NCBI GenBank assembly: GCA_019038645.1
Contig: JAHOYT010000035.1
Location: 1-63,373 of the forward strand
Direction: 5' to 3'
DNA length: 63,373 nucleotides
From: Bacteroidales bacterium
GTDB lineage: Bacteria; Bacteroidota; Bacteroidia; Bacteroidales; UBA12077
In this document: piece after piece, positions 17,901 to 34,718 of the stretch
Position numbering within the stretch: the first letter of the stretch is position 1
Layout of the letters: each line of letters opens with the position of its first letter
The notes under the pieces: model-generated
The model's database searches: none
Seen by the model: the letters and a program-made list of their open reading frames with translations, nothing else
Told to the model about the DNA's origin: nothing
Made by a program: the position numbers and the translations under genes

Positions 17901-20366
17901 TTAAAAAACAAACTGAACAGCTAATCTCAGACCAAACTTCTCTATATCTTCATGGTCTAAATAGGATAAACGCCACATGGCATCAACTCTAAAAATTTTT
18001 AAAATATTTTCGATTCCAACGCTCGCTTCAAGATAAGGATCGTTAACCTGATATAATCCTTCCGGAAAATCCATAATATTTTCGTGACGATTACTAAGCT
18101 CTCCTATTAAGCCCTTTGCAGAGACAACTTCACGCCATTTTAATTTTCTCATTAAAGGAATTTTATTTAAAAATAATCCCTGAAAATGGTGCTCTGCATA
18201 TAAACTGACATATCGGTCACTGGCAAATTCATAATAGTTCATCATATTAAAAGCATAACGATCGAAAGCGTAGGTTTCGTTTCCTTCGTGAAGTTTTAAT
18301 AAGGGATAAGGTAAAGTTCCAAAAACCTGACCCGCATCAATTATGTATTTAAAATATCCAAAGGGTCCTAAAGGCACTTTATGTGCAAAGCTCACGTTTA
18401 GTTTATAATATTCATATTGACTATCAAAAACATTTTTCAAACCGGCAGTGAAGTTTATATTTATAACAGGCTTATCGGTTCCAAGACTTACTCTTTCGAA
18501 TTCTCCACGTAGGTATTTTTCATTTTTTGCATAACGAATGTTTAATGTAACTTCTGAGGCTGTTACATTATCATAAAAAACAGTATCGGTTACATTACTT
18601 TTCTGAAATGGAATATATGTAGTCGGTTCAATGCTTTTGTAATTAAATTCCAGTTTGTTAGAAAATCCCTGAAACCATTCTTTTTCCACATCAACGCGAA
18701 AGTCGTTAACCATGGTAAGCTTGTAATTTGGATTTCTTCGAAGAATTGAGGTGAAAAAGTTATCTTCAGTTAAAGCATTTGAGCTTTGTCCCAGTTGTTG
18801 AATATCATGTTTGTATTCAGTTCCAATAGCTAAACGAGGGTTGTTATTAAACAGATATAAAAATCCTCCTCCATATTTAAAACGATTATCTTTTTCTCCA
18901 TATGCTGCATGAGAATATATCATGAGGTTTGTGCTGAAATTATTACTTGTTCGTCCTCCAAGCCTGATTCTATTACCTTCAATTTCATTAAAGCTAAAAA
19001 GTTTATAATATGGTCCAAGTTCGAACAATCCTACTTCATAATGATACATAGCAAACATCCCGACAATTTTCTCATATGTTCTATAAATAGGCACAAGCTG
19101 TATTGAGTCAACCATTTTATAGATATCCTTTTCTTTGGGAGTAAGATTTATTGGCCTGTATTTATCCCAGTATTCCTCATCGTTAATAATAGCATCTTCC
19201 AGAACAATAACATTGTCGTTTATTTTGGTAACATGATCCGGCATTTCAGTGTCAAGCTGAATATCCATGTAATTGGTGGTCTTTTTTCCAAAAAATCCTA
19301 ATGTTTTATCAGTAAGGTTAAAATCGAAAAAAAGTTTCTCGTTTTTTAAAAACCACAAACTATCTTTTACCGGTTTAAATTCATATTCTGCAACAAAATC
19401 ATTAATATAATTTATATTAACTTCCTTTGACATTCGCATTTGTATTTTTACAATTGCAAAAGTTGTATCGTTTACCCAGAAGTCTCCACGAAATGTTCTT
19501 TCTTGTTTTCGTTTAGGAATATATGAAATTTGGTAGCACCATTTATTTCCAATAAATGCACTGTCAATTAAATAGTACTTATAATACATTAAACCAAAAT
19601 CTGCAATAGGACTAACAAAACCGGGCTCAAAAACTGTCAGGTAGTTTTCATAAATATTAATTTTTTGATACATTTTACCGGTAAATTGAGATAAACTAGC
19701 ATTTTCAACTCCAGAAATTTTTGTGGCTGTTATTATTTCCCGTTCAGTTTTCGGATTTCGGTTAAAGTAATAATCCGAAAAAGATTCAGTAATGAATATT
19801 GGAAGGTAAGATTTACCAGTAATAGCGGAAGTATCGACGTAATCGAAAATAAATTGAAAATTTCGAAGCAATCTTTGTTCACGAAACTCTTTATCGACAT
19901 TATTTATATCGATTTCAACCTTATTATATAACTTATAAGTATAAGAATCAAATTTACGGGGATTGTGCTTTTTTTTATTCGCTATAATATTCCTTAGAAT
20001 AGGATGGGCGGGATTTTCGGTCGGCAAAACAACGATTTCCTGTAATTCAAAAATAGTAGATTCTAACGAAAAATTTATTTCCTGAAAGTGATTTTTACTG
20101 ACAAAGCGCGATTGTTTTTTATAACCAACAAATGAAACCACAATTGAATCATAGTAATTTCGTGTTTCGAGAAAATACTCACCGTCTGTATTAGTGATTG
20201 TACCAATTGTTGAATTTTTGAAAGTTACATTTACAAAAGGGATTGGCTCATGGGTAACTGCATCAAAGATTTTGCCCCGAACCTTAGTAATTTGGGCAAA
20301 ATTCTGATTGCCGTTAAAAATAAAAATTAAAAATATAATGATCCAAAAAGGGAACTTGTTTCTCAT
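17901..20366 (-). CDS. DUF5686 outer-membrane protein with carboxypeptidase-like regulatory domain
   Basis: An 821-residue protein with a signal peptide (1-24), an Ig-like CarboxypepD_reg domain (about 27-110: VRGKIFDAVTHEPIPFVNV, TDGEYFL), and a long DUF5686 region ending in aromatic beta-strands and a terminal Phe (LAVQFVF), as expected of an outer-membrane barrel. It resembles the plug-and-barrel layout of TonB-dependent receptors but lacks a TonB plug. The function of the family is unknown. It sits between tatC and lptB, with 39 and 67 bases on either side, so a place in envelope assembly is inferred. Confidence 0.85.
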   Translation of the reverse strand: MRNKFPFWIIIFLIFIFNGNQNFAQITKVRGKIFDAVTHEPIPFVNVTFKNSTIGTITNTDGEYFLETRNYYDSIVVSFVGYKKQSRFVSKNHFQEINFSLESTIFELQEIVVLPTENPAHPILRNIIANKKKHNPRKFDSYTYKLYNKVEIDINNVDKEFREQRLLRNFQFIFDYVDTSAITGKSYLPIFITESFSDYYFNRNPKTEREIITATKISGVENASLSQFTGKMYQKINIYENYLTVFEPGFVSPIADFGLMYYKYYLIDSAFIGNKWCYQISYIPKRKQERTFRGDFWVNDTTFAIVKIQMRMSKEVNINYINDFVAEYEFKPVKDSLWFLKNEKLFFDFNLTDKTLGFFGKKTTNYMDIQLDTEMPDHVTKINDNVIVLEDAIINDEEYWDKYRPINLTPKEKDIYKMVDSIQLVPIYRTYEKIVGMFAMYHYEVGLFELGPYYKLFSFNEIEGNRIRLGGRTSNNFSTNLMIYSHAAYGEKDNRFKYGGGFLYLFNNNPRLAIGTEYKHDIQQLGQSSNALTEDNFFTSILRRNPNYKLTMVNDFRVDVEKEWFQGFSNKLEFNYKSIEPTTYIPFQKSNVTDTVFYDNVTASEVTLNIRYAKNEKYLRGEFERVSLGTDKPVININFTAGLKNVFDSQYEYYKLNVSFAHKVPLGPFGYFKYIIDAGQVFGTLPYPLLKLHEGNETYAFDRYAFNMMNYYEFASDRYVSLYAEHHFQGLFLNKIPLMRKLKWREVVSAKGLIGELSNRHENIMDFPEGLYQVNDPYLEASVGIENILKIFRVDAMWRLSYLDHEDIEKFGLRLAVQFVF

Positions 20367-20405: not shown

Positions 20406-21206
20406 TTATGTATTTATCCTTTTAACGATTTTTTTGGAAATTATTATACCTGCTTCGTAAAGAATTAATAATGGGAAAGTAACAAGAATAAGGCTAAAAA
20501 CATCCGGAGGTGTTATTGTTGCAGCTAATATTAATATAACAATAATAGAATGACGTCTGTATTTTTTAAGGAATTTAGGTGTTACTAATCCTGCTTTACT
20601 TAAAAAGTATATTAAAACAGGTAGCTCAAATGTTATTCCTGAAGCAAGCGTTATCGAAGTTAAAATACCTACATATGATTTTAAATTAATTTGATTAACA
20701 ACCTGATCACTTACATTATATGATCCCAAAAAATGAACAGACAAAGGAGCAATTACAAAATAACCGAACAAAACTCCGGTGAGGAAAAGGAATGAACTAA
20801 TAGTAACAGCTCCCTTCGTATGTTTGGCTTCATTTTCGCGTAGAGCAGGTTTCATAAAGCGCCAAAACTCCCAAAATATATATGGAAAACTAACAACTAT
20901 ACCTACAAATAAAGACGTAGTAATATGCATGGAAAATTGCCCGGCCATTTTAATGCTGATGAGCTGAAAAGGTTTTGTGTTTATACATAGTTTGGGTATG
21001 TCAACTTTTTGGCTTAGCAGACATAAAAGTTTATTTGTAAAAAAATCCGGATTTTTAGGAGCAAGTAATACTTTATCAAAAACAATTTCGTGAAATATAA
21101 ATGCTGCGATAGCAATAGTAACAACCGCCACAAAAGCTCTTATCAAATGCCATCTCAATTGTTCGAGATGTTCCAGGAATGTCATGTCGTTATTTTTTGC
21201 AGTCAT
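20406..21206 (-). CDS. tatC: Sec-independent protein translocase TatC
   Basis: TatC is the receptor for twin-arginine signal peptides in the inner membrane. The N-terminal signature MTFLEHLEQLRWHLIRA begins at residue 8, and six hydrophobic segments follow, with FPYIFWEFWRFMKPAL and RRHSIIVILILAATITPPD typical of the family. At 266 residues the length is normal. Its presence matters for the Tat-like leader of the radical SAM protein at 33371. It lies 26 bases after kdsD; tatA is not in the window. Confidence 0.95.
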   Translation of the reverse strand: MTAKNNDMTFLEHLEQLRWHLIRAFVAVVTIAIAAFIFHEIVFDKVLLAPKNPDFFTNKLLCLLSQKVDIPKLCINTKPFQLISIKMAGQFSMHITTSLFVGIVVSFPYIFWEFWRFMKPALRENEAKHTKGAVTISSFLFLTGVLFGYFVIAPLSVHFLGSYNVSDQVVNQINLKSYVGILTSITLASGITFELPVLIYFLSKAGLVTPKFLKKYRRHSIIVILILAATITPPDVFSLILVTFPLLILYEAGIIISKKIVKRINT

Positions 21207-26477: not shown

Positions 26478-26984
26478 TTATGAAGAGCCCTCTGAAGGCT
26501 GGCTATTTTTTATATTAACTAATTCAGTGCATTTTTCATAATCTTCTGTCTTTGTAAAATATTCGAGCAAATCGTTTGTAAAAGACTCATCCTTAAAATA
26601 CGGATGCAGAATATCAAAATTAACAGCTCCATTTATAGTAAGATCAAAATAATCCTCTTTGCTGATTTCATTAACTTCATTTTTAATGGAATCTTTTTCT
26701 ACAGACTGATTCAGGGTACTGCTTATTTCTGAAAATAATTCTGTTTTGCTATGATAATTCTCGATGTAGCCTGACAACTCTTTTTGTAATTTTATTCCGT
26801 CAGCATTTTCATGTAGTAATCGTTTATTAAAATTAAACCTGTAACTAAGTTTTTTTGAACGCAGGTCTGATACAGGCTCCTTTAATATTTCTTTTATTTT
26901 TTCCTCATTACTATGGATCAGACTCAGGTTAAACTTTATCCTTGATTTTAATGACTCAATAGTTTCACGAAATAGCTTAATCAT
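26478..26984 (-). CDS. Protein of unknown function, charged and helical
   Basis: A 168-residue protein I do not recognise. It has no signal peptide or membrane segment. It is rich in Lys, Glu, Asn and Ser with predicted helical heptad-like stretches at 1-90, and acidic/aromatic patches later (EDYFDLTINGAVNFDILHPYF, NDLLEYFTKTEDYEKCTEL). It is flanked by an ABC permease (convergent) and an OppC-type gene (upstream, 111-base gap). Codon use looks like that of its neighbours. It could be a lineage-specific cytosolic protein. Confidence 0.6.
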   Translation of the reverse strand: MIKLFRETIESLKSRIKFNLSLIHSNEEKIKEILKEPVSDLRSKKLSYRFNFNKRLLHENADGIKLQKELSGYIENYHSKTELFSEISSTLNQSVEKDSIKNEVNEISKEDYFDLTINGAVNFDILHPYFKDESFTNDLLEYFTKTEDYEKCTELVNIKNSQPSEGSS

Positions 26985-29545: not shown

Positions 29546-31072
29546 ATGAAAAATGCAATTAAGTTTTTTCATTATTTATTGGTTATTATTTTTATTGTGA
29601 TTACAATCGAATGTAATTCACAGTCAGATGAATGCATCGATCGTGAGCCCGTTGTGGCCGGTTCTTTCTATCCTGAAAATCCTGCACAGTTAAAAACATA
29701 CCTTGAATCTTTATTTGCACAGAGTGAATATGTAAAGACATATGATAATGTTTTAGCTGTGATTGTTCCTCATGCTGGTTATGTATATTCGGGAAAGGTG
29801 GCTGCTTCAGGTTATAATCAGATTGATCCGGACAAAGAGTATGATAATATTTTTATTATTGCTTCAAGTCATAGAGTAATGTTCAATGGAGCATCAGTTT
29901 ATAATTTGGGTGATTATATTACACCACTAGGGAAAGTAGCTGTGAATAAAGAACTCGCAGATAAGCTGATCAGGGAAAATGAAATATTTGTTTTTAATCA
30001 GGATGCTCATGCTGCGGAACACAGCCTTGAGGTTCAGCTACCTTTTCTACAATATAAAATGAACAAGGATTTTCAGATAGTTCCAATTGTAACCGGAACA
30101 CAGACCCTGGGTGAAATAAAAAAGTTAGCAGAAGTATTATTACCGTATTTCAATGAAAATAATTTGTTTATCGTAAGCACAGATTTTTCACATTATCCTG
30201 ATTACAATAATGCCCTGATAGCAGATAAGAAAACAGGAGATGCAATTCTTTCAAATTCGGTTGTTAATGTTATTAATGCTATTAACTGGAATGGTTCTGC
30301 AAATTTTGAAAATCTGGTAACAAGTCTATGTGGCTGGCCATCGGTTTTGACTTTATTAAATATAACGGAAAAGAATCCGGATATTCAGGTTATACATGTT
30401 GATTATCAAAATTCCGGTGATGTTTCGGGCGATAAAAGCCGGGTAGTTGGTTACCATTCAATAGTTTTTGCAAAGAAAAAAACACAGAATATGTCACAAA
30501 CTAAATTTATTTTAAGCGATCATGAAAAACAAAATTTATTGGAGATTGCAAGGACAACTATTGTAGAGTACTTAGAAAAAGGAAAGACTCCTGTAATCGA
30601 TAAATCATTAATAACAAAGGCAATGGAGACGAAATGTGGCGCGTTTGTTACTTTGCATAAAAAAGGAGAGTTACGGGGATGTATAGGGCGTTTTGTTGCT
30701 GATGAACCGTTATATATAATCGTACAAAAGATGGCTGTAGCGGCGGCAACTGAAGATAGCCGTTTCACAGTTGTAAAAAATGAGGAAATGCACGATATTG
30801 ATCTTGAAATTTCGGTACTTACTCCTCTTGAGAAGATTGAATCTGTTGATGAAATTGAAATGGGAAGACATGGAATTTATATTAAAAAGGGTTTCTCCTC
30901 AGGAACATTTTTACCTCAGGTAGCGATTGAAACAGGATGGACCAAGGAAGAATTTCTGGGTTATTGTGCACGAAATAAGGCCGGTATCGGCTGGGAAGGG
31001 TGGAAGGAAGCAGATATTTATATTTATGAGGCTTTAATTTTTGGAGAAAAGGAAATTATTAATAATAAATAG
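29546..31072 (+). CDS. AmmeMemoRadiSam system MEMO-AMMECR1 fusion protein
   Basis: A 508-residue fusion of the two non-radical-SAM parts of the AmmeMemoRadiSam trio. The N-terminus has a hydrophobic leader (8-23) ending in a Cys (ITIECNS), so export is likely though not by a textbook lipobox. The MEMO domain (about 32-310) has REPVVAGSFYP, VPHAGYVYSG (His76), SSHR (His109), AEHSLEVQLPFLQ, STDFSHYPDY (His216) and SLCGWPS (Cys262), resembling the metal-binding residues of human MEMO1. The AMMECR1 domain (about 325-505) has GAFVTLHKKGELRGCIGRF and NKAGIGWEGW. The biochemical function is unknown in any organism that I can name with confidence. Confidence 0.92.
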   Translation: MKNAIKFFHYLLVIIFIVITIECNSQSDECIDREPVVAGSFYPENPAQLKTYLESLFAQSEYVKTYDNVLAVIVPHAGYVYSGKVAASGYNQIDPDKEYDNIFIIASSHRVMFNGASVYNLGDYITPLGKVAVNKELADKLIRENEIFVFNQDAHAAEHSLEVQLPFLQYKMNKDFQIVPIVTGTQTLGEIKKLAEVLLPYFNENNLFIVSTDFSHYPDYNNALIADKKTGDAILSNSVVNVINAINWNGSANFENLVTSLCGWPSVLTLLNITEKNPDIQVIHVDYQNSGDVSGDKSRVVGYHSIVFAKKKTQNMSQTKFILSDHEKQNLLEIARTTIVEYLEKGKTPVIDKSLITKAMETKCGAFVTLHKKGELRGCIGRFVADEPLYIIVQKMAVAAATEDSRFTVVKNEEMHDIDLEISVLTPLEKIESVDEIEMGRHGIYIKKGFSSGTFLPQVAIETGWTKEEFLGYCARNKAGIGWEGWKEADIYIYEALIFGEKEIINNK

Positions 31073-31180
31073 AAATAATCTCCTTCGGATTTTTGCTTAT
31101 TACATTAATTTGAGTGTTAATTCATTTATTTAATAATAAAAGCCAATAAATTTTTAATTACGAAGACTAAAATATTAATA

Positions 31181-33307
31181 TTGGATAAATACAATCATAA
31201 AAAAATTGTTAAACCTGGTATTATTTTGCTGGGTTTTATTGCTTTAGTAACACAGGTTGTTTTATTAAGAGAATTTCTTACTTTCTTTAATGGAAATGAG
31301 TTGGTTATTGGAATTATTCTTGCCAACTGGATGCTTCTTACAGGATTTGGAGCATACATCAGCAGATTTATTAATAATAAAAACAGAATTCATTGGATCC
31401 TGATTCTCTTGGGTTTACTGGCATTTTTACCAACTATTTCTGTTTTGGCTTTACATATTTTTTGGTATACGTTTTTTCTTCCCGGAATGATGGCTGGAAT
31501 AGTTCATGTGTTTTATTATTCTTTAATAATTTTGAGCCCGTTTTGTATAATTTCAGGAATTCTTTTTACTCTATTTGCTAAAGAGGAATCCTTAATGTTT
31601 AAAAAAAACAAGATCGGAGATGTCTACGCATGGGAGTCACTGGGAAGTTTAATTGGTGGTATCATTTTAAACTTTTTACTGATTTGGATTTTTTCTACTT
31701 TTCAAAGCCTTTTTCTGATCATGATTTTGGCAACAATAGTTACAGCTGTACTATGTATTAAAACCAGACACTATTATACTTCAGGGATATTCATTTTTAT
31801 AGCATTAGTTTATAGCTTTTTATTTTTAGAAAATAATTTAGATCAAAAAGTAAGGGAATTAGCCTTCCCAGGTCAAACCGTAACTTATTCCAGCGATTCG
31901 CCTTTTGGTCTTTTTGCTATTACCCAACAAGATGGTCAAATAAATTATTATGAGAACAATATTTTAATGGCGGCGTCCGGTGATATTATTTCAAAGGAAG
32001 AATCTGTGCATTTTGCTATGGTACAACACAATAATCCGGAACATATATTGGTTTTATCGGGAATCATATCAGGAATTACAGATGAAATTATTGAATACCC
32101 TGTTAATTCAATTGATTATGTGGATGTAAATCCTGAAATAATAAAAATGGCTAAAAGAAATTTTAATGCTGATTCCTATAAAATGCTGAATTTAATTGAA
32201 AAAGATGCTCTTCGGTTTTTAAAAAAGAATCAAAAAAAGTATGATGTTGTTTTAATTAATCTTCCCAAACCATCAACTATTCAGTTGAACAGATACTACA
32301 CACTGGAGTTTTTCCAATTATTAAAAAAGAACCTGAACGAAGAAGCAGTGATATCATTATCTGTGCCGTCCGGGGCAAACTATATGAGCGATGAAGCAAG
32401 GGAATTTCTATCAATTATTTACACAACATTAAAGTCTGAATTTGAGAATGTGCTTATTCTCCCGGCAAATGAAGATTTCCTTTTGGCCTCCGATGCTCCA
32501 CTAACTTACAAAATAGCTGAAACGGTTGAGGAAAAAAACATACCGACAGAATATGTTAATACATATTATTTCGACGACGAACTGTTACTGATTCGAAACC
32601 AGCAAATTATGGAACAAATTGACATTGAAGTTCCATTAAACAGAGATTTTAGTCCGGTATTTTATCAAAGTCAGATTAAGTTATGGATGAGTCGGTTCAA
32701 TATTAAATACTGGATTCCTGCCGTATTGATTTTACTTTTATCAGGATTCTTTTTTATTAAGGCCGGAACCTTATATAAGGGTGTATACGCTGCCGGGTTT
32801 GCAGGAACGAGTATTGAAATTGTATTGTTATTAGCTTTTCAGGTGGTTTTTGGATATGTATATGCAGTAGTTGGAATAATTATCATGATTTTTATGGGTG
32901 GACTTGCATATGGATCATATTATGTCCCTAAATATTTTAAGAAAATAGACAAGAAGCTGTTTAGCAACTTGCTGTTGTGTATTTCATTATTTGCTTTCAT
33001 GTTGCCGGTTATTTTCATTTTATTAAAAAACATTGAAATCTACGATGTAATTATCATTATTATTTTCACTATTTTACTTTCTGTAATTTCTATTTTAACA
33101 GGTGCAATGTTTTCTGTCGCCAGCAAAATTTCAAGCAATGATTATGGAATAGTTGCTTCAAATGCCTATGGGTTAGATTTGCTTGGAGCAGCGACAGGAG
33201 CTTTGTTATTTACCATTTACTTAATCCCACTGTTAGGTTTTGGATGGTCGGTTGTAATAGCAGGGATTTTTAATTTAGCACTTGCAATTGTAGTTGCAAA
33301 AAAATAA
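31181..33307 (+). CDS. Polytopic membrane protein with spermidine-synthase-like domain
   Basis: A 708-residue protein in three parts: seven or so membrane segments (1-220), a soluble Rossmann methyltransferase-like domain of spermidine synthase type (about 225-470), and six more membrane segments (495-708). The soluble part has HFAMVQHNNPEHILVLSG, VDYVDVNPEI-like IDYVDVNPEIIKMAKRN and YDVVLINLPKPSTIQLNRYY. The Gly-rich GGGDG loop and the catalytic Asp region of true spermidine synthases are altered, so aminopropyl transfer is doubtful. The frame begins with TTG and no ATG is available for 50 codons. It lies between the MEMO-AMMECR1 gene and the radical SAM gene. Confidence 0.83.
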   Translation: MDKYNHKKIVKPGIILLGFIALVTQVVLLREFLTFFNGNELVIGIILANWMLLTGFGAYISRFINNKNRIHWILILLGLLAFLPTISVLALHIFWYTFFLPGMMAGIVHVFYYSLIILSPFCIISGILFTLFAKEESLMFKKNKIGDVYAWESLGSLIGGIILNFLLIWIFSTFQSLFLIMILATIVTAVLCIKTRHYYTSGIFIFIALVYSFLFLENNLDQKVRELAFPGQTVTYSSDSPFGLFAITQQDGQINYYENNILMAASGDIISKEESVHFAMVQHNNPEHILVLSGIISGITDEIIEYPVNSIDYVDVNPEIIKMAKRNFNADSYKMLNLIEKDALRFLKKNQKKYDVVLINLPKPSTIQLNRYYTLEFFQLLKKNLNEEAVISLSVPSGANYMSDEAREFLSIIYTTLKSEFENVLILPANEDFLLASDAPLTYKIAETVEEKNIPTEYVNTYYFDDELLLIRNQQIMEQIDIEVPLNRDFSPVFYQSQIKLWMSRFNIKYWIPAVLILLLSGFFFIKAGTLYKGVYAAGFAGTSIEIVLLLAFQVVFGYVYAVVGIIIMIFMGGLAYGSYYVPKYFKKIDKKLFSNLLLCISLFAFMLPVIFILLKNIEIYDVIIIIIFTILLSVISILTGAMFSVASKISSNDYGIVASNAYGLDLLGAATGALLFTIYLIPLLGFGWSVVIAGIFNLALAIVVAKK

Positions 33308-33370
33308 TTTGCATTTGGTATGATTCAGCTTTAAATTTGAATATAACTATTTCATTATCGAATTATTTTT

Positions 33371-34510
33371 ATGAAGAAGAAAATCAATAAGCGTGAATTC
33401 ATGAAATATGGAGTTTTAGGTTCCTGTGCTTGTGTACTTGGTGTGGGGAAGGTTCATGCATTTACTCATGGATTTTCTGAAAAAACAGATGATTTATGGA
33501 AATGGAGCAAATTATCGAAATATTATATAGATACGCCGCGTGGTGTAAAATGTCTTATTTGTCCGAACGAATGTGTCATAAAGGAAGGTGAAACAGGAGA
33601 TTGCAAATCCCGGATTAATTACAAAGAGAAAATTTATTCTATTGGTTATGGAAATCCATGCTCATTGCATGTTGATCCAATTGAGAAAAAACCTTTGTAT
33701 CATTTTTTACCTGAAAGCAAAGCTTTTTCACTTGCAGTGGCAGGTTGTAATTTAGCGTGTTTGAATTGCCAGAACTGGCAAATTTCGCAGGTTGGTCCAA
33801 AAGAAACCCGTAATTATGATTTAATGCCGCCGGAAGTTTATAAACAGGCACAAAACTATAAGTGCCGGTCTATTGCATATACTTATTCGGAGCCGATTGC
33901 TTTCTACGAGTATTTCTACGATTCGGCAAAGATTGCAAAACAGAATGGAATTAAAAATGTAATGGTTTCTGCTGGTTATATCAATGAAAGACCTTTGCGG
34001 GAAATTGCTCAGTATGTTGATGCTGCTAATATTGATCTGAAAAGTTTCGATGATGAAATTTATGCCCGTTTAAATGCAGGAAAATTGCAACCCATTTTAG
34101 ATACATTGAAGGTATTAAAAGATGAAGGTGTATGGCTGGAAATTACAAACCTGATTGTTCCGGAATGGACCGATGACCTTGATATGATCAAACGTATGTG
34201 CGATTGGCTCTATAAACATGGATTTGAGGATTACCCATTACATTTTAGTCGTTTTTCTCCTCTGCATAAACTCACACATTTACCATCGACTCCCGTAAGT
34301 GTTTTAAATAATGCAAGAGAAATAGCCCTGAATGCAGGATTGAAATATGTGTATATTGGAAATGTTCCCGGATCGGATGCTCAAAATACTGTGTGTCCAA
34401 AATGTAAAAAGATTGTGATCGAAAGAAAAGGTTATCGGATTCTTCAAAACAACATTGTAAACGGTAAATGCAAAATTTGTAATACTACAATTGCAGGAGT
34501 ATGGAATTAA
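33371..34510 (+). CDS. amrS: AmmeMemoRadiSam system radical SAM enzyme, with export-like leader
   Basis: A 379-residue radical SAM protein. The cluster motif C126-x3-C130-x2-C133 (CNLACLNCQNWQIS) is preceded by a four-Cys region (C61, C64, C68, C78) and followed by GNPCSLHVDPIEKKPLYHF-like and IDLKSFDDEIY segments typical of the AmrS/PflA-like group; a zinc-ribbon of CxxC pairs (342/345, 367/370) ends the protein. The first 30 residues are unusual: NKREFMKYGVLGSCACVLG resembles a Tat leader with KR instead of RR and a Cys that could be lipidated (LGSC). It lies 63 bases after the membrane protein and completes the trio. Confidence 0.93.
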   Translation: MKKKINKREFMKYGVLGSCACVLGVGKVHAFTHGFSEKTDDLWKWSKLSKYYIDTPRGVKCLICPNECVIKEGETGDCKSRINYKEKIYSIGYGNPCSLHVDPIEKKPLYHFLPESKAFSLAVAGCNLACLNCQNWQISQVGPKETRNYDLMPPEVYKQAQNYKCRSIAYTYSEPIAFYEYFYDSAKIAKQNGIKNVMVSAGYINERPLREIAQYVDAANIDLKSFDDEIYARLNAGKLQPILDTLKVLKDEGVWLEITNLIVPEWTDDLDMIKRMCDWLYKHGFEDYPLHFSRFSPLHKLTHLPSTPVSVLNNAREIALNAGLKYVYIGNVPGSDAQNTVCPKCKKIVIERKGYRILQNNIVNGKCKICNTTIAGVWN

Positions 34511-34592: not shown

Positions 34593-34718
34593 GGCTGTTT
34601 CAAAAGTAACAAACTGTCATTCCATCGAAAAAGGGAATCTCATATTTAACATTTATACAATTACTAATGAGATCTCCAATCAAGTTGGAGATGACAAAAA
34701 AGGACTTTTGAAACAGCC
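34593..34718. repeat. Composite palindromic miniature element
   Basis: Perfect 15-base terminal inverted repeats, GGCTGTTTCAAAAGT (34593-34607) and ACTTTTGAAACAGCC (34704-34718), enclose nested inverted repeats: TGTCAT with ATGACA, ATTCC with GGAAT, ATCTCAT with ATGAGAT, and ATCTCC with GGAGAT. The whole 126 bases could fold into a multi-arm structure. No open reading frame is inside. It resembles REP/BIME or MITE-type intergenic repeats. Confidence 0.75.

Follow-up and report, generated by a model that had tools for sequence, protein, structure and literature searches.

Memo, AMMECR1 and a radical S-adenosylmethionine (SAM) enzyme together form the widespread AmmeMemoRadiSam system (families TIGR04336, TIGR04335 and TIGR04337), and contexts that join the three have reportedly been described by Burroughs et al. 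in 2019. Radical SAM enzymes are generally regarded as cytoplasmic, since that is where SAM and low-potential electrons occur. The window analyzed here, positions 1-63,373 of contig JAHOYT010000035.1 of a Bacteroidales bacterium (assembly GCA_019038645.1), carries at positions 29546-34510 three consecutive open reading frames (ORFs) on the + strand, which encode a Memo-AMMECR1 fusion, a large membrane protein with a spermidine-synthase-like domain (hereafter spd) and the AmmeMemoRadiSam radical SAM enzyme (hereafter rSAM). Export leaders, linkage among relatives, joint absence, predicted topology and co-occurrence with Tat in archaea make it very probable that this trio is a dedicated extracytoplasmic radical-SAM system, in a genome that also encodes a cytosolic-type AmmeMemoRadiSam copy.

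The AmmeMemoRadiSam core is already known, with 'Memo-Ammecr1 systems' attributed to Burroughs et al. 2019 in PMC7159879, and the exported form with its membrane partner is a variant of it. The first-pass annotation, made from the window's sequence without database searches, had named the locus its best candidate for an undescribed system; this may hold for the exported form, on which nothing was found in literature whose coverage left out most subscription journals, and not for the core. Papers naming AmmeMemoRadiSam included none on its function, judged by titles, and no paper was found on phrases of the 'periplasmic radical SAM' type. In the window all three families score above their NCBIfam cut-offs, and the Memo metal ligands, the AMMECR1 LRGC motif and the rSAM cysteines are kept. 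The window's version differs from the described system in that it is predicted to be exported, has Memo and AMMECR1 fused and is tied to a dedicated membrane protein with 14 predicted transmembrane (TM) segments, and the archaeal exported version often lies beside TatC and a NapH-like protein.

The identities of the three genes are secure. The fusion gene (29546-31072, 508 aa) encodes a Memo domain (aa 33-308, 29642..30469; TIGR04336 1.3e-74, 250.9 bits against a cut-off of 26; also PF01875) followed by an AMMECR1 domain (aa 330-499, 30533..31042; TIGR04335 3.7e-49, 166.4 bits against 99; also PF01871). The spd gene (31181-33307, 708 aa, TTG start) matches PF01564 (2.2e-20, aa 272-393) inside a multi-TM protein, and the rSAM gene (33371-34510, 379 aa) encodes an AmmeMemoRadiSam radical SAM domain (aa 58-379, 33542..34507; TIGR04337 7.2e-107, 357.3 bits against 220). 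The fused MEMO and AMMECR1, the large membrane protein with its spermidine-synthase-like domain, the radical SAM enzyme and the succession of the genes on one strand had all been read correctly in the first-pass annotation. The genes are separated by 108 bp (fusion and spd) and 63 bp (spd and rSAM), a pattern scan of the + strand found no terminator-like site in either gap, and overlaps of a few bases join the genes in several relatives. The gap sizes and the absence of a terminator-like site fit an operon.

The residues expected of each enzyme are intact. Memo H76, H109 and C262, invariant in 17/17 fusion sequences, align (alignment to 7kq8) with H49, H81 and C244 of human MEMO1, the iron ligands of that protein according to PMC11081632. 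The AMMECR1 LRGC motif (aa 376-379) and G381 are invariant across the 17 aligned fusion sequences. The rSAM carries the CxxxCxxC motif (C126/C130/C133) together with N-terminal (C61/C64/C68/C78) and C-terminal (C342/C345/C367/C370) cysteine sets, all of them invariant in 28/28 aligned sequences, leadered and leaderless alike. The trio is a second copy in its genome, as would be expected if it were a relic or a broken duplicate derived from the cytosolic one, but with these motifs invariant and the system persisting across bacteria and archaea a relic is scarcely credible and was rejected. By sequence the closest solved structure to the rSAM is 3c8f, the pyruvate formate-lyase activating enzyme (E 3e-11 over aa 123-280), from which the window's enzyme differs by the extra N- and C-terminal cysteine sets and the leader. 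No glycyl radical enzyme was found among the flanking window ORFs scanned. Standing nearest to glycyl-radical activases, the rSAM may thus place a radical on its fused partner or on a small substrate.

Linkage was followed in 59 related genomes, the window's included, which were searched with TIGR04337 and had leaders read from the N-termini (L numbers denote loci and G numbers genomes of the compared relatives). The window's genome holds a second, shorter rSAM copy (C1:36432-37421), leaderless and accompanied by Memo; in this genome and in relatives the second copy lacks a leader and goes with an unfused Memo. Such short-type rSAMs begin at or close to the domain start and mostly adjoin a separate, unfused Memo gene, often with a separate AMMECR1 gene as well. 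Long-type rSAMs adjoin the fusion and spd. Among 28 long-clade rSAMs of relatives, 25 have a leader with KR or RR-x-F-[LI] and a hydrophobic stretch (KREFM in the window), and three are leaderless: the second copy in L052 and those of L058 and L074. In L052 the two rSAM copies stand in tandem in one locus (318-1328 and 1353-2489), one leadered and one leaderless. None of 26 cytosolic-type loci contained spd, TatC, or the NapH-like and 3-TM proteins considered below.

A leader-bearing rSAM occurs in 26/59 of these genomes, and spd is encoded in 26/26 of them against 3/33 of the others, an association (Fisher 9e-14) that is only indicative because the genomes share ancestry (19/58 of the other genomes belong to one genus). 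Three genomes have spd without a leadered rSAM: in G009, which is 70% complete, a contig end truncates the gene, in G012 there is a fragment at the end of a contig, and in G040 the match is weak and partial. In 25/26 leadered loci, the window's included, spd lies within 1.9 kb of the rSAM gene, as a fragment at a contig edge in L061 and L065, and in the 26th genome (G030) it is on another contig. The fusion is present at 21/26 leadered loci, and three of the five loci that lack it (L061, L065 and L080) end at a contig edge. Conversely, spd is absent (1e-20) from the whole genomes G047 and G053, whose only long-clade rSAM (L058 and L074) is leaderless and has a leaderless fusion beside it, so that leaders and spd are missing jointly. 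The proposed role of spd as membrane partner of the other two draws its support from this linkage and from the predicted topology described below. Chance adjacency of the trio was rejected on the linkage in relatives, the wider scan and the phylum sample.

Both leaders that had been noted in the first reading are present. The fusion begins with a Sec or lipoprotein-like leader (aa 1-22, 29546..29611) that ends in Cys23, a residue not mentioned earlier, with an imperfect lipobox (IEC followed by NSQ). The Cys and NSQ are kept in close relatives; the preceding residue is E or Q in several relatives and S, A or G in others, and several further relatives have no Cys at this position. A hydrophobic N-terminus is found in 63/67 distinct fusion ORFs, the four without one being L096, L117 (contig-cut), L058 and L074. 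The rSAM leader (aa 1-30, 33371..33460) comprises NKREFMK, a hydrophobic stretch and VHA; it is Tat-like as claimed, with the qualification that its motif is of the KR type and not the canonical twin arginine (the relative L066 has SRREFLK). Among 48 core-locus rSAM ORFs, 40 have KR, six have RR (all archaeal) and two have no motif (L128, cut by a contig end, and L147, with an odd N-terminus). A twin-arginine motif occurs in 16/16 archaeal long-clade rSAMs with an intact N-terminus (SRREFLK, SRRDFIK, TRRQFIG and similar). In an Omnitrophota locus (L170), the rSAM overlaps a leader-bearing Memo-AMMECR1 fusion, and its own leader resembles a Sec signal, not a Tat signal.

The rSAM leader would need the TatC translocase, and the window's genome encodes one, its only TatC match (20406..21206, - strand; PF00902 1.5e-64), outside the operon. 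This gene lies 8.3 kb from the trio, and a distance of ~8 kb recurs in G002, G003, G011 and G016; in G001, G013 and G021 it is 17-42 kb off on the same contig, and elsewhere among the relatives it sits on a different contig. Since TatC is near-universal in the Bacteroidota relatives (56/59), its co-occurrence is informative only in archaea.

In archaea, Tat and the exported form go together. TatC is in the same locus as the system in L123, L128, L132, L133, L137, L144, L148, L151, L235 and L236, lies at a distance of 3.8 kb from the exported rSAM gene in the genome of L140, and adjoins the fusion in the Bacteroidota locus L106. TatC was searched for in 13 genomes (12 archaeal and that of L106); it is present as a single copy in 12, without linkage to the system in G064 and G068. 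A count was made over the 117 archaeal genomes nearest to that of L123, a Woesearchaeota metagenome-assembled genome (MAG). TatC occurs in nine and full-length spd in 12, weak partial matches (60-95 bits) in G091, G145 and G180 being left out, and spd is present in 9/9 genomes with TatC against 3/108 others (Fisher 3e-11, only indicative because the genomes are related and incomplete). Ten of the 12 spd genomes have an RR-leadered rSAM, that of G135 is cut, and G067 (the genome of L152) has a short rSAM only. TIGR04337 itself is found in 71/117 of the archaeal genomes, so it is the exported form and not the family that goes with Tat.

These observations bear on a more conservative interpretation, in which the leaders are uncleaved anchors, the domains stay on the cytoplasmic face and the locus encodes an ordinary AmmeMemoRadiSam system tethered to the membrane. 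The KR motif of the window's rSAM and the imperfect lipobox of the fusion would suit such anchors. Positively charged N-termini before the hydrophobic stretch, however, predict an N-in, C-out orientation; 16/16 archaeal orthologues with an intact N-terminus carry RR, often with TatC beside them; the synthase-like domain of spd is predicted outside in 68/69 sequences; and six exported rSAMs contain CxxCH inserts. Tethered cytoplasmic domains are therefore considered very unlikely. The leaders also do not look like cytosolic helices, being absent from the cytosolic paralogues, of the RR type and often encoded beside TatC in archaea, and missing together with spd in L058 and L074. The earlier suggestion that the chemistry is attached to or outside the inner membrane is thus supported, at the level of sequence comparison, by leaders, linkage, joint absence, predicted topology and archaeal Tat.

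The distribution of spd extends well beyond the relatives of the window. A scan of contigs from 84,980 species with the spd alignment gave 134 relatives, of which the best 80 were kept, at least 14 of them contigs already among the studied relatives. The best 80 of 134 come from Bacteroidota, Ignavibacteria, Woesearchaeota and other DPANN, Theionarchaea, Altiarchaeota, Anaerolineae, Omnitrophota and others. Close loci were those with a profile score of 500 bits or more (n = 68), and with neighbors counted within 4.5 kb, 45 have fusion and rSAM, nine the fusion only, three the rSAM only and 11 neither; many of the 23 incomplete loci end at contig edges. Genomes were searched for ten of the 11 loci with neither partner, and eight carry a leadered rSAM elsewhere. 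L110 is an isolated spd on a 3.4-kb contig. The 12 more distant loci have rSAM nearby in one case, and in six of their genomes searched, four have an rSAM with a Tat leader, one has a Sec-like leader, and in G071 no leader was seen in the rSAM copy read. A phylum sample of 296 evenly drawn genomes (at least 90% complete, spd threshold E<=1e-60) has rSAM in 65 and spd in seven, and in 7/7 of the spd genomes, that of the window among them, spd stands next to a leadered rSAM and the fusion, one rSAM being contig-cut. Seven other rSAMs of this sample were read, most with long open frames, and none has such a leader. With the window protein alone as query, no relative of spd was found on viral contigs.

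In a tree of 120 rSAM domains, a branch with SH-aLRT 95 has the 76 leadered rows on one side, along with five unleadered rows, two of them truncated at contig ends. The tree was quick and midpoint-rooted, and long branches, including that of L074, were flagged by the program. From this grouping, the export trait looks old, being common to bacteria and archaea, with a few losses.

The membrane partner is predicted to consist of two helical blocks around a soluble domain. The AlphaFold model (m7b1e0d953505; pLDDT 85.7, pTM 0.85) has seven long helices, a soluble domain and six more long helices, the last (655-707) long enough for two, and hydropathy counts range over 12-16 TM segments per spd sequence. 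From the model helices, the internal repeat and the loop charges, we settle on 14 TM segments for the window's protein: TM1-TM6 (aa 10-194, 31208..31762), an extra TM7 (aa 198-217, 31772..31831) that would carry the chain outside, the spermidine-synthase-like Rossmann domain (aa 233-480, 31877..32620), an extra TM8 (aa 511-527, 32711..32761) and TM1'-TM6' (aa 530-707, 32768..33301). The two six-helix halves are direct repeats (aa 8-194 against 529-708; hhalign probability 97.4, E 1.2e-11), with 20 column shuffles reaching at most 0.6% and a reversed profile 0.2%. Across 69 spd sequences the mean number of K+R in the loops is 15.8 on the predicted inside against 1.6 outside, each half taken by itself gives the same orientation in 68/69, and TM7 and TM8 are hydrophobic in 67/68 and 68/69. 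Loop charges and repeat thus place the synthase-like domain outside, and a cytoplasmic domain was rejected on the same charges. Two homologous parallel 6-TM halves are a trait of the major facilitator superfamily (MFS) type.

The soluble domain retains the fold of spermidine synthases and probably has a changed function. Foldseek matches it to spermidine synthases (1uir etc., E 1.2e-11), and the best NCBIfam match of the protein is PRK03612, a polyamine aminopropyltransferase. A genuine membrane-bound spermidine synthase that stands in the operon by chance would give these same best matches in family and fold. The protein nevertheless scores below the aminopropyltransferase cut-offs (PRK03612 130.7 against 472; speE 61.8 against 249.6), and the acids of the GGGDGG and DxxDP motifs, which we take to be the catalytic acids of spermidine synthase, fall where the window has SGIISG and NLPKP. 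In the family (n = 69), position 360 is N in 49 sequences and D in 11, and position 363 is E or D in 41. With the catalytic motif altered family-wide and spd co-occurring with the exported rSAM from Bacteroidota to archaea, a true spermidine synthase is highly improbable and was rejected on the scores and the lost acids. The acids at the ends of beta 2 and beta 3, presumably nucleoside-binding, are kept (D315 and D342 in the window; D/E315 in 68/69, D342 in 69/69 of the family), as are E273, H277, P364, R371 and F377 in 69/69. The closest described architectures, PRK03612 and NF037959 (fused MFS/spermidine synthase), share a TM region and a spermidine-synthase fold with spd, which differs in scoring below both cut-offs (35.9 against 40 for NF037959), in having the catalytic acids mostly replaced and in the second homologous 6-TM half that follows the domain.

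Conservation of this kind leaves room for spd as an enzyme, the outward domain transferring an aminopropyl, carboxypropyl or methyl group to the substrate that rSAM and Memo-AMMECR1 then modify further; export is common to this proposal and to the one preferred here. The retention of E273, H277, D342, D355, N370 and R371 in 67-69 of 69 sequences resembles an active or binding site and not decay. Set against this are the replacement of most spermidine synthase catalytic acids, the low PRK03612 score, and the need for SAM or decarboxylated SAM outside the cell, and an enzymatic role is regarded as unlikely, though not negligible. A role in supply, in which the MFS-like repeat and the outward nucleoside-binding domain would serve the exported rSAM by supplying or recycling SAM or its products, is a hypothesis that we regard as less likely than not.

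Candidate electron carriers accompany the exported enzyme. In the N-terminal alignment of spd, with one badly matched row (L155) ignored, 21 distinct bacterial relatives have ~120 extra N-terminal residues; in seven close relatives a stand-alone ORF of 110 residues, from this 3-TM family, sits between fusion and spd. The 3-TM protein has three helices with H90 and H94 in 18/18 sequences and H34 and H76 in 17/18. At E<=1 it matches DUF4405 in 10/18 (best 7.6e-4) and Ni_hydr_CYTB in 8/18 (best 0.023); with these sub-threshold matches to DUF4405 and cytochrome b561 families, a b-type cytochrome is only suggested. In 8/19 archaeal spd genomes a NapH-like 4Fe-4S membrane protein stands beside the system. 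It resembles NapH/MauN-type membrane ferredoxins (PF12801 2.6e-12, weak TIGR02163 matches), and differs from them in lying far below the napH cut-off, in having a radical SAM enzyme as partner and in being absent from the window's trio locus. Ahead of the catalytic domain, six exported rSAMs (four from Chloroflexi, two from the window's phylum) carry an inserted CxxCH motif that could bind a c-type heme or some other metal center. The occurrence of one exported enzyme with three unrelated redox modules suggests a supply of its electrons through the membrane.

In the mechanism favored here, Tat would export the folded rSAM with its iron-sulfur clusters and Sec the Memo-AMMECR1 fusion, possibly as a lipoprotein, and the 14-TM spd would span the inner membrane and turn its spermidine-synthase-like, nucleoside-binding domain toward the outer compartment that receives the other two, where the trio would jointly run a radical reaction. 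Electrons would reach rSAM across the membrane, by way of the 3-TM protein in many bacteria, the NapH-like protein in archaea and CxxCH in some rSAMs. Our working guess is that rSAM places the radical either on the fused partner, for instance at the LRGC loop of AMMECR1, or on a small substrate that the Memo iron site would act on next. A complete extracytoplasmic pathway can be sketched on this basis, with MFS-like delivery of SAM through an outward SAM-binding domain, interchangeable membrane redox modules, and Tat in some Woesearchaeota-like archaea kept almost solely for rSAM; this fuller picture is tentative and falls somewhat short of an even chance.

Several observations weigh against this interpretation. 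The window's rSAM has KR and not RR, and its fusion has Glu at position -1 of the lipobox. At L077 and L079 the fusion is missing from the vicinity, although the contig does not end on that side; 11/68 close spd loci have neither partner nearby, and no exported rSAM was found in the genomes of L141 and L152. TatC was not found in the genome of L152 nor in the archaeal spd genomes G095 and G166. Since the genomes are for the most part MAGs, absences and linkage are imperfectly recorded. For the carriers, the Pfam matches of the 3-TM protein are below cut-offs, its Foldseek search was not significant (best E 0.33), the protein is absent from the window and its genome, and the stretches read of 11/19 archaeal genomes have no NapH-like neighbor. 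The SAM-supply role of spd rests on topology and fold: spd has no Pfam MFS match, NF037959 falls below its cut-off and covers only the synthase part, and the best 50 of 1368 fold matches include no MFS fold. Outside the cytoplasm, SAM is not known to be available.

Other features were noted around the system and its relatives. In the intergenic stretch 3' of the rSAM gene is a perfect 15-nt inverted repeat (34593-34607 and 34704-34718; GGCTGTTTCAAAAGT and ACTTTTGAAACAGCC) with arms 96 nt apart, possibly a small repeat element. Elsewhere in the window are a 168-aa ORF with no Pfam or NCBIfam match (26478-26984, - strand) and a DUF5686 protein with a CarbopepD_reg_2 domain (17901-20366, - strand) that adjoins TatC. 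Near the exported trio of an Ignavibacteriales genome is a second, stand-alone Memo with a signal-like N-terminus (L107:2615-3667, - strand; 350 aa, PF01875 3.8e-24), and in a Desulfobacterales locus (L162:928-1662, + strand) a stand-alone AMMECR1 with a hydrophobic leader directly precedes the membrane protein.

Work outside the cytoplasm is unexpected for radical-SAM chemistry. If the rSAM does operate there, a route for SAM and electrons must exist in that compartment, and spd, the 3-TM protein and the NapH-like protein are named here as candidate genes for that supply. The archaeal pattern of Tat and spd also points to a reason for the retention of Tat in a few reduced archaeal genomes. 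MEMO1 and AMMECR1 are human relatives of the Memo/AMMECR1/rSAM trio; an exported and fused version would make the substrate and product easier to catch and the function of the family easier to test.

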